A DNA stretch of 64,000 bases from Synechococcus sp. RS9909 (lineage in GTDB: Bacteria; Cyanobacteriota; Cyanobacteriia; PCC-6307; Cyanobiaceae). Below the pieces are notes generated by a model, which did not search any database, was not told the origin of the DNA, and saw only the letters and a list, made by a program, of their open reading frames with translations. The stretch spans positions 434,001-498,000 of the forward strand of contig NZ_CP047943.1 in the NCBI RefSeq assembly GCF_014279595.1. Direction: 5' to 3'. Positions 30,056 through 33,150 of this stretch are shown here, in pieces. Within the stretch, counting starts at the first letter, position 1. The number at the start of each line of letters is the position of its first letter. Made by a program: the position numbers and the translations under genes.

Positions 30056-30849
30056 AGGCCGCCATGAATGCTGCGCCGGCCTGGTGGGTGGTCACCGATC
30101 TGGATGGCACCCTGTTGGATCACCGCTACGACTGGCAGCCGGCCGAGGCGGCGATGCGGGGCTTGCAGGATCGGGGCATCCCCGTGATTCCCTGCACGAG
30201 CAAAACGGCAGAGGAGGTGCGGCGCTTTCGTGCTGAGGCGGGGTTGCACGATCCCTTCATCGTTGAGAACGGTGGTGCGGTTTGCGGTGAGACGGAGGAT
30301 GGCGTTCCCTGGGAGTTGGCCTTGGGGGAGCCTGCTGAAGCGCTGCGCCCTGTGTTGCGGGAGCTTGAGCGCCTTGTGCAGGAACCGCTTCAGGCCATTG
30401 ATGCACTGACCGAGGAGCAGGCCGCGGCCCTGTTGGGGCTCACCGGTGAGGCACTGCAGCGGGCGGCGCGGCGCCGTTGGAGTCTTCCCTTTGTGCCCCC
30501 CTCAGCAGCAGCTCGTCTGCGACTGCCTCTCTTGGCCCAGAACCTCGGTGTGTCGGTGGTGCAGGGCAACCGTATGGGCCATCTGCTCGGTGCTCAGGTC
30601 AGCAAGGGCCGGGCGCTTGAGCGCCTGAAAACCAGGATGGGCGGCGCCTCGGTGCGGGTGCTTGCTTTAGGAGATTCTCCCAATGATCTTCCCCTGCTCG
30701 AGGCCGCCGATGTGGCGGTGGTGGTGCCAGGTTCCGATGGCCCCCATCCGGTGTTTGCCGAGGCGCTGGCGTCGGGTCGTTTTCAGCTGGCCAGTGCACC
30801 CCATGCCGCGGGCTGGGCGGAGGCCGTGCAACAGGTGGTGATGGCTTGA
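30052..30849 (+). CDS. gpgP: Glucosyl-3-phosphoglycerate phosphatase (HAD family)
   Basis: A 265-residue HAD phosphatase of the mannosyl/glucosyl-3-phosphoglycerate phosphatase group. Motif I is VTDLDGTLLD (nucleophile and acid/base Asp) near residues 14-23; motif II is in PCTSKTAEEV; motif IV is LGDSPNDLPLLEAAD. ATG 30052 overlaps the stop of the GH13 gene (ATGA). It would dephosphorylate the GpgS product to glucosylglycerate. Confidence 0.88.
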   Translation: MKAAMNAAPAWWVVTDLDGTLLDHRYDWQPAEAAMRGLQDRGIPVIPCTSKTAEEVRRFRAEAGLHDPFIVENGGAVCGETEDGVPWELALGEPAEALRPVLRELERLVQEPLQAIDALTEEQAAALLGLTGEALQRAARRRWSLPFVPPSAAARLRLPLLAQNLGVSVVQGNRMGHLLGAQVSKGRALERLKTRMGGASVRVLALGDSPNDLPLLEAADVAVVVPGSDGPHPVFAEALASGRFQLASAPHAAGWAEAVQQVVMA

Positions 30850-30873
30850 CTGCCCTGATCGGGGCGGTCGGTC

Positions 30874-31332
30874 TCAGATCAGCTCCTCTAGCGCTCCGGG
30901 GGGCCATTGCTCCTTGACGAGATCGTGAAGCAGGTCGAAGTCTGCGAAGTCAAAGCCTGGGCCGACGCAGCAGCTCACCAGGGCATAGCTGCCTTGGGGC
31001 CGGGCGGCTTGCCAGTGATCCGCTGGGATCACCTGGATGGGATGGTCCGGTGAGAGCATGGTGCTGCTGGCACGGCCTCCCGCCGGTGCAAGCGAGAACA
31101 GCTCCAGCGGCGCACCCTGCAGATGCACCCACATTTCGTCGGCACCGCGCACGCGATGCCAGCGACTGATCGATGCAGCATCCAGTAGGAACAGGATGCT
31201 GGTGAGCCCCGGGCGCGTTTGTCCATCCTTGCGGATGACGAGGGCAGGGCTGCGATGCACCTCCTTGTACCAACCGCCTTCGGGGTGGGGCGCCAGCTCC
31301 CACCGATGGATCAGTTCCTTGCACAAGCTCAT
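30874..31332 (-). CDS. Cupin-like DUF985 family protein
   Basis: A 152-residue single-domain cupin of the DUF985 type. The N-terminus LIHRWELAPHPEGGWYKEVHR is characteristic; later segments SILFLLDAASISRWHRVRG, DEMWVHLQGAPLEL and CCVGPGFDFADF complete the barrel. No metal or ligand is known. The start MSLCKELIH at 31332 fits the family; an upstream in-frame ATG at 31482 would add an atypical tail. It stands alone between the gpgP end and the alsS/alsD scar. Confidence 0.82.
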   Translation of the reverse strand: MSLCKELIHRWELAPHPEGGWYKEVHRSPALVIRKDGQTRPGLTSILFLLDAASISRWHRVRGADEMWVHLQGAPLELFSLAPAGGRASSTMLSPDHPIQVIPADHWQAARPQGSYALVSCCVGPGFDFADFDLLHDLVKEQWPPGALEELI

Positions 31333-31381
31333 GGGCGCCGTCTTCTGGAATCCCTTCCGGAACCCCGTGGTGGGGTGGGGG

Positions 31382-31685
31382 TTAGCTGTGTTTGCTCTCG
31401 GCCTTGGCCAGGGCCTCGGCTGGATCTCCCTGGAGATCGGCCATGAGGAAACCCGGTGTTTCCGGTAGAGCGAGATGCACATGGTTGTCCATATGCAGTT
31501 TCACGCTGAGATCACTGGCCTGCAGATCAAGGATGTGGCCCCCGTGCTGATGGTCATCACTGAGAAGGTGCAGGTGATAACCAGGCACGTTGATCGTGCG
31601 GGCATAGCTGGGTGTCCAGAAGCCCACGAGAGTGCCGCGGATGCTGTTGTTGCTGAATTCGGCCTGATGGCTTGTGGCCGTGACC
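31382..31685 (-). pseudogene. alsD: Acetolactate decarboxylase, C-terminal remnant
   Basis: About 100 codons that read as the C-terminal part of alpha-acetolactate decarboxylase: the frame runs [16 protein letters not shown], then [33 protein letters not shown] (zinc-binding histidines) and a normal-looking end. The N-terminal half is missing. At about 31680-31686 it joins the alsS remnant out of frame. A GTG at 31627 could start an 81-residue peptide, but that lacks most of the enzyme, so this should be non-functional. Confidence 0.85.
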
Positions 31686-31919
31686 GACCCGTCCGGTCAG
31701 ACGTCCGAAGGCCTGGGCCATGAAGGCGGCGTTCTGCTCATGTCGGCAGAGCACCAGTTCAATGGGCGAATCGAGCAGGGCTGTGAACACGCTGTCGACC
31801 TTGGCGCCGGGGATCCCGAACACATGCGTGACCCCGTGGGCTTGCAGGGCCTTCACCAGGAATTCCGCGCCGTTCATGGTTGTTGCTGATGTCACCAGCA
31901 CCCTGACCAGGGGAGCCAT
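31681..31919 (-). pseudogene. alsS: Acetolactate synthase (catabolic type), N-terminal remnant
   Basis: About 80 codons that match the start of a thiamine-diphosphate acetolactate synthase: [55 protein letters not shown] and RLTGRVG, where the conserved Glu of the ThDP site (RHEQ) is present. Sequence similarity stops after RLTGRVG, exactly where ALVTSGPG should follow, and the frame then runs into the alsD remnant. The rest of the roughly 550-residue protein is gone. Confidence 0.85.
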
Positions 31920-31984
31920 CGGCAGTCGGGTTGTTCACGATTTATTTGTTTTCTTGCTTCGGCTCTGGCTGCCTTGATCGCCAA

Positions 31985-32015
31985 CAAAAAGCCCCCACCG
32001 TGCGGTGAGGGCTTT
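31985..32015 (-). terminator. Rho-independent terminator after psbA
   Basis: On the minus strand a long hairpin (AAAGCCC/GGGCTTT outer stem, CACCG/CGGTG inner stem, one mismatch between them) is followed by a T-run where the plus strand has AAAAA at 31986-31990. It lies about 55 bp past the psbA stop, as expected for a strongly expressed single-gene transcript. Confidence 0.88.
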
Positions 32016-32070
32016 CCGATTCAGTTGACCTGAATCGTTATTGTTCGCTAAGGAACGTGTTGACTTCAGA

Positions 32071-33150
32071 TCAACCGATGGCGGGAGCCTGCAGAGCCAC
32101 GGGGGTGGACTCAGCAGCAGCCAGGTCGAGGGGGAAGTTGTGAGCGTTACGCTCGTGCATCACTTCCATGCCGAGGTTGGCGCGGTTCAGCACATCAGCC
32201 CAGGTGTTCAGGACGCGGCCCTGACCATCAAGGATGGACTGGTTGAAGTTGAAACCGTTCAGGTTGAAGGCCATGGTGCTGACGCCCAGGGCAGTGAACC
32301 AGATGCCGACCACAGGCCAGGCAGCCAGGAAGAAGTGAAGGCTGCGGCTGTTGTTGAAGGAGGCGTATTGGAAGATCAGGCGACCGAAGTAACCGTGGGC
32401 AGCCACGATGTTGTAGGTCTCTTCCTCTTGGCCGAACTTGTAGCCGTAGTTCTGGGACTCGCTCTCAGTGGTTTCACGCACCAGGGAGGAGGTCACCAGG
32501 GAACCGTGCATGGCGGAGAACAGGGAACCACCGAACACACCGGCCACACCCAGCATGTGGAAGGGGTGCATCAGGATGTTGTGCTCAGCCTGGAACACCA
32601 GCATGAAGTTGAAGGTGCCGGAGATGCCGAGGGGCATGCCGTCGGAGAAGGAGCCCTGACCGAAGGGGTACACCAGGAACACGGCGGAGGCAGCAGCCAC
32701 AGGAGCGCTGTAAGCAACGCAGATCCAGGGGCGCATGCCGAGGCGGTAGGAGAGTTCCCACTCGCGACCCATGTAGCAGAAGATGCCGATCAGGAAGTGG
32801 AACACAACCAGCTGGTAAGGACCGCCGTTGTAGAGCCACTCATCGAGGGAGGCCGCTTCCCAGATGGGATAGAAGTGCAGGCCGATGGCGTTGGAGGAGG
32901 GCACAACAGCACCGGAGATGATGTTGTTGCCGTAGATCAGGGAGCCGGCGACGGGCTCACGGATGCCGTCGATGTCGACGGGAGGCGCTGCGATGAAGGC
33001 AACGATGAAGCAGGTGGTGGCAGCCAGCAGGGTGGGGATCATCAGCACACCGAACCAACCCACATAGAGGCGGTTGTTGGTGGAGGTGACCCACTCGCAG
33101 AAGGACTGCCAGCCATTGGCGCCGGAGCGCTGCTGAATGGTGGTGGTCAT
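32071..33150 (-). CDS. psbA: Photosystem II D1 protein
   Basis: A 359-residue D1 reaction-centre protein that binds P680 chlorophyll, pheophytin, QB and the Mn cluster. Residue 130 is Glu ([11 protein letters not shown]), the form associated with high-light D1:2 in cyanobacteria, rather than Gln130 of D1:1. It has Tyr161 in the expected region, [15 protein letters not shown] for the heme/iron His ligands, and the C-terminal processing site after Ala344 (PLDLA-AAES) with a 15-residue tail. The 5' region holds a stable hairpin, and a strong terminator follows. Confidence 0.98.

Follow-up and report, generated by a model that had tools for sequence, protein, structure and literature searches.

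The interval between psbA and a cupin gene in Synechococcus sp. RS9909 (genome G000) carries the beginning of an acetolactate synthase gene (alsS) and the end of an acetolactate decarboxylase gene (alsD), joined out of frame at positions 31382–31919 of the window (the whole stretch of 64,000 nucleotides analysed here). This raises the question of whether the locus is the remnant of a lost acetoin operon, how and when the loss occurred, and whether the genome retains the pathway elsewhere. The features of the region are as follows, G018 being the nearest relative found.

32071–33150, minus strand: psbA (photosystem II D1), the upstream neighbour; 100% amino acid identity to the G018 copy
31985–32020, minus strand: terminator-like inverted repeat after psbA, recognised by eye and nearly identical in G018; not listed by the terminator-type scan
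31878–31983, minus strand: leader separating this repeat from the start of alsS; G018 lacks it
31683–31877, minus strand: alsS 5' fragment, codons 1–65, matching the NCBIfam AlsS profile; rest of the gene apparently deleted
31684–31692, minus strand: putative deletion joint, where the matches from the two sides share 9 bases, with a frame shift of one
31385–31684, minus strand: alsD 3' fragment, last 100 codons, matching TIGR01252; stop codon at 31384–31382
30874–31332, minus strand: cupin (DUF985) gene, the downstream neighbour (PF06172, 1.2e-39), starting 49 bases from the alsD stop

In the profile search, the alsS fragment matched NCBIfam AlsS NF006378 over profile positions 9–72 of 556 (E, 9.8e-29), TIGR02418 (E, 1.2e-25), and Pfam TPP_enzyme_N (1.9e-21), and the alsD fragment matched TIGR01252 (E, 2.1e-25; profile positions 137–221 of 232) and PF03306 (1.8e-26; positions 136–218 of 219), with scores far beyond chance for both fragments. 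The alsS bit scores (90 and 100.1 bits, covering 63–64 profile positions) lie below the whole-protein cut-offs of TIGR02418 (551.1) and NF006378 (510), the fragment being homologous to AlsS and not a complete member; the 89.5 bits of the alsD fragment against the curated TIGR01252 cut-off of 180.65 similarly mark it as not a complete AlsD. The start of alsS by homology is the ATG at 31877, which gives 65 codons; the first-pass annotation had correctly described an alsS head joined out of frame to about 100 alsD codons, but counted about 80 alsS codons because its count began at the ATG at 31919. Since the alsD frame is one base off the alsS frame, the open reading frame from 31919 reads past the joint in the wrong frame and ends at 31557 (120 aa). 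The two DNA matches to genome G142, one from each side, have 9 bases in common (31684–31692), and this is the best break interval; the break is as sharp as first described, although its earlier placement at 31680–31686 only touches this interval. Neither fragment contains an internal stop codon, as the first reading had also stated. A microhomology of 2–4 bases at the joint is plausible, and one of up to 9 bases ambiguous, the relatives being too distant to fix the exact length.

The missing sequence is present in relatives. In G142 and G039, single-contig genomes of another genus (g10) of the same family, psbA is followed on the same strand and in the same order by complete alsS and alsD, with 283 and 262 bases, respectively, between the psbA stop and the alsS start (193 in G000). 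At the joint, 2,011 bases are missing in comparison with both genomes, and 2,023 in comparison with the operon of G018 from the same genus as G000, in agreement with the deletion of about 2 kb first proposed for a psbA-adjoining alsS–alsD pair. The intact psbA-adjoining genes sought in sister strains were thus found in another genus, and no sister strain with them was found. The scar has the form of a deletion pseudogene, with two truncated genes joined and the missing sequence carried in order at psbA by G142 and G039. The alsS fragment has amino acid identities of 95% to G142, 92% to G039, and 88% to G018, and the alsD fragment 85–87% to three psbA-linked g10 copies and 72–74% to G022 and G018. 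In G120, alsD directly follows psbA, and in G235 (genus g5) psbA is followed by a complete alsS (85% to G142) with no alsD within the 16 kb examined. Lone complete alsS genes of the catabolic type were seen in two g5 genomes, adjoining psbA in G235 (L227:8009-9652) and directly after the cupin gene in G208 (L228:5947-7590), with no alsD in the stretch examined. At the psbA–cupin site of G018 no als gene is found, and about 63 bases stand in place of the scar.

We interpret the scar, with a probability of roughly 93%, as the dead remnant of a psbA-linked alsS–alsD operon left by one deletion of about 2.0 kb, with a second als locus of the genome having decayed separately; the loss of function and the deletion mechanism are both deduced from sequence comparison. 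The intact operon would have converted two pyruvates to acetolactate (AlsS), followed by decarboxylation to acetoin (AlsD). The single deletion (about 2.0 kb), for which a few similar bases may have served as a guide, would have removed everything from codon 66 of alsS to the point where the last 100 codons of alsD begin, leaving an out-of-frame joint without function. The als locus of the other lineage in G000 would have decayed on its own, as described below.

PF03306 matches occur at two places in the G000 genome, both of them fragments, namely the scar and G000:C1:1695557-1695769; the latter belongs to the following feature.

L033:10353-10790 (G000:C1 about 1695352-1695789): second als locus, alsS gone and alsD in scraps, from alignment to G018

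This locus, at 1.695 Mb, is orthologous to the intact alsS–alsD pair of G018. Its flank behind alsD shares 93% identity with G018 in a stretch of 4.1 kb and 92% in the adjoining 4.2 kb, and the stretch in front of alsS aligned only in a 77-base piece. Five matching pieces are separated by four missing stretches, one of which removes alsS together with the alsD start and three of which lie within alsD, and the alsD remnant also changes frame. The pieces overlap at the joints by 2, 7, 14, and 4 bases, as would be expected of deletions guided by short similar stretches. TPP_enzyme_N was found at four places in the genome: the scar, IlvB, an indolepyruvate-decarboxylase-like protein, and a 724-codon frame. 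The indolepyruvate-decarboxylase-like protein (570 aa, L004:160-1872) scores below its curated cut-off. The PF03306 and TPP_enzyme_N searches of the G000 genome found neither an intact alsD nor an intact alsS of the catabolic type. Without an intact alsD, acetoin could no longer be made by way of AlsD; since the second locus decayed differently, at least two loci had to fail, and the original proposal that the acetoin pathway was lost by one event is not upheld.

The two als copies of G000 belong to different als lineages. In a tree of AlsS and AlsD (832 columns, 14 loci, G235 left out), the scar, which fills 20% of the columns, groups with G142, G039, and G120 with 100/100 support, and forcing it together with G018 and G022 of its own genus costs 41 log units and is rejected (p-AU, 5.4e-6). 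This grouping with g10 would also be produced if the psbA-linked operon had been gained from that genus by horizontal transfer and not inherited. Compatible with such a transfer, the identities of AlsS (92–95%, 65 residues) and AlsD (85–87%, 100 residues) equal or exceed those measured for four background proteins of G000 and three g10 genomes (83–86, 83–84, 72–74, and 57–59%), and none of 28 cupin loci of the genus holds an intact als gene within about 1.5 kb of the cupin gene. With that background, however, the als identities do not demand a recent transfer and fit inheritance equally well; moreover, G004, of the same genus as G000, has a relic at the same psbA–cupin site, the terminator repeat differs little from that of G018, and the cupin, at 47–48% identity, does not resemble those of g10. 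We therefore regard gain from g10 as rather unlikely. As a marker of a donor, the cupin was rejected: its nearest relative is that of G018, with about 67% amino acid identity although the flanks are 93–95% identical in DNA, the g10 cupins reaching only 47–48%, so that it names no donor. A phage route by way of phage-borne psbA was likewise not supported, as viral contigs contained no relative of the AlsD alignment (34 pattern matches, none confirmed), and the 10 matches in phage records, all below 60% identity, came from Listeria, Staphylococcus, and Enterococcus phages. Plasmid records gave 13 matches at 60–80% DNA identity and no support for a plasmid route; the five of the 13 that were listed cover the alsS part only and come from Pantoea and Klebsiella.

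A separate question is whether the scar arose in the chromosome that now carries it, since it lies within a segment that differs from G018.

30451–31983, no strand: low-identity patch, comprising the 3' part of mpgP, the cupin gene, and the als scar, from 250-base windows against G018

The flanks are 93.6% identical to G018 over 18 kb and 95.1% over 21 kb, whereas 8 of 158 windows of 250 bases fall below 85% (unaligned bases being scored as differences), seven of them contiguous from 30451. Probably, the segment was exchanged in one of the two genomes. The scar might accordingly have come by homologous recombination, as part of a patch of about 1.5 kb (3' mpgP, cupin, and als remnant) from an unsampled relative, with the deletion having taken place in the donor; this would concern the history of the scar and not its identity. 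The identity to G018 falls from 93–95% to 73–78% from 30.45 kb and recovers at the psbA terminator, the scar is without a counterpart in G018, and the cupin is only 67% identical. Also, the 3' part of mpgP is slightly nearer to that of G019 in G018 (73%, 234 bases) than in G000 (68%, 303 bases). This mpgP comparison is weak, though, no donor was found, and G018 could equally be the exchanged genome; recombination is thus a serious possibility, to which we give a little less than an even chance.

With regard to age, the pN/pS values of the fragments in comparison with g10 (0.045–0.068 for alsS and 0.127–0.143 for alsD) are close to those of intact single-lineage pairs (0.030 and 0.043 for alsS, 0.069–0.161 for alsD), alsD being within the intact range and alsS slightly above it on few changes, so that some decay of the alsS fragment is possible. 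The low values imply that most of the divergence accrued while the genes worked. In simulations, the frames stayed free of stop codons in 74% of the runs at 3% neutral divergence and in 57% at 5%; because stop-free frames are so common, the absence of stops does not show the deletion to be recent relative to the G000–G018 divergence (5–7%). The earlier inference of a recent deletion is accordingly upheld only in part: the codons point to purifying selection until late, but the missing stop codons date little (74% chance at 3%).

Open frames and low pN/pS could also be taken as signs that the short frames have acquired a new function, either as the alsS-headed 120-aa open reading frame or as an AlsD C-terminal peptide. 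However, a gene that became inactive only late should still show low pN/pS, hardly anything of AlsS is left, and the full-length fused form was matched in G000 only among the 395 genomes scanned, which makes a new function highly improbable. Equally hard to credit is an assembly error, in which the genes would be intact and the joint artificial: the G000 assembly is a single contig of 2.60 Mb with 100% completeness, the second als locus is broken too, and comparable joints are present in the assemblies of G004 and G019. A dead remnant of the psbA-linked operon therefore remains our preferred reading.

The joints in G004 and G019 indicate that the scar is not an isolated case. Between psbA and the cupin gene, G004 carries a short-chain dehydrogenase, next a stretch matching the G142 alsS leader at 20 of 20 bases, and finally approximately the last 18 alsD codons, of which 16 of 18 residues are as in the group of G142; this relic represents another scar at the site of the G000 scar, its end points being different. 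The psbA–cupin als site thus looks old, and the psbA-linked operon may have been an old resident there. The G004 dehydrogenase between psbA and the als relic (L098:7470-8540) matches general SDR models best, with meso-2,3-butanediol dehydrogenase and acetoin reductase among the 25 models listed, all below cut-offs; it may once have been part of an acetoin/butanediol module. When 34 loci were scanned for alsD tails, 28 of them cupin loci of the genus and the other six additional stretches with some overlap, clear hits came from G000 and G004 only; more distant relics would be missed because most cupin loci span only about 1.5 kb per side, short of psbA. At the other als site, in G019, 93 alsS codons (99% DNA identity to G022) are joined to approximately the last 16 alsD codons.

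Within the genus, PF03306 was matched in 11 of 31 genomes, the match being unbroken in seven, five of which are of a second AlsD type without linked alsS; the scar-type AlsS is complete in 2 of 31 genomes (G018 and G022) and present as a fragment in G000 and G019. The second AlsD type (L024, L025, L026, L028, and L066) is about 51–53% identical to G018 AlsD, lacks a linked catabolic-type alsS, and is broken in G021 and G015. In the family, PF03306 was found in 48 of 400 sampled genomes. From these hits, together with G004, G235, and G208 and leaving out the alsD-only type, 29 als loci were picked: 12 have complete alsS–alsD pairs (including G142, G039, G018, and G022), eight are damaged (G000 twice, G019, G004, G048, G237, G315, and G091), and in nine the stretch examined contains a single gene, several of these loci lying at contig ends. 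The G004 relic and the G019 alsD tail are below the threshold of this tally and rest on separate alignments, and some breaks in G048, G237, and G315 may be sequencing errors because these assemblies are multi-contig. Altogether, these loci suggest repeated loss of the acetoin pathway within the genus. At the psbA sites of G000 and G004 and at the other site of G019, each locus retains only the head or leader of alsS and the tail of alsD, with differing end points, and the fourth decayed locus (the second of G000) lost alsS entirely. We consider it doubtful, though conceivable, that selection has repeatedly removed the acetoin operon in the genus; in that case, some marine Synechococcus niches would disfavour overflow of acetoin or acetolactate, and the operon would not have been lost by drift.

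Deletions across two neighbouring genes form a general class of pseudogenes, with one sharp joint and two truncated genes. The scar is fundamentally the same, an ordinary pseudogene, and the notable point is the recurrence at the als operon: it is made somewhat more interesting by relatives that lost the same type of operon separately. It resembles the alsS–alsD (budB–budA) acetoin operon (TIGR02418, TIGR01252) in gene order, strand, and families, and differs from it in comprising two ends only, out of frame, which are not predicted to form a working operon. In the open-licence literature, searched by title and the opening of the abstract, no published report of the scar was found. For the Black Sea Synechococcus strains BS55D and BS56D, acetoin fermentation genes have been reported, with the activity still unconfirmed there (PMC6776005, PMC7434838; also PMC8955281); these acetolactate synthase and decarboxylase genes, reported in marine Synechococcus of clades VIII/IX, are the two kinds of gene of which the scar keeps fragments, and the passages on them describe them as present with no mention of a scar, unlike the situation in G000.

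Acetoin fermentation in marine Synechococcus has been reported as a property of Black Sea strains, and scars are now seen at two chromosomal sites. The patchiness of the acetoin trait in the genus would be due at least partly to repeated deletion, and short AlsS or AlsD matches are unsafe for scoring the trait. For oxygenic phototrophs, the scars may serve as fixed marks by which to trace how a fermentation pathway is gained, exchanged, and lost.
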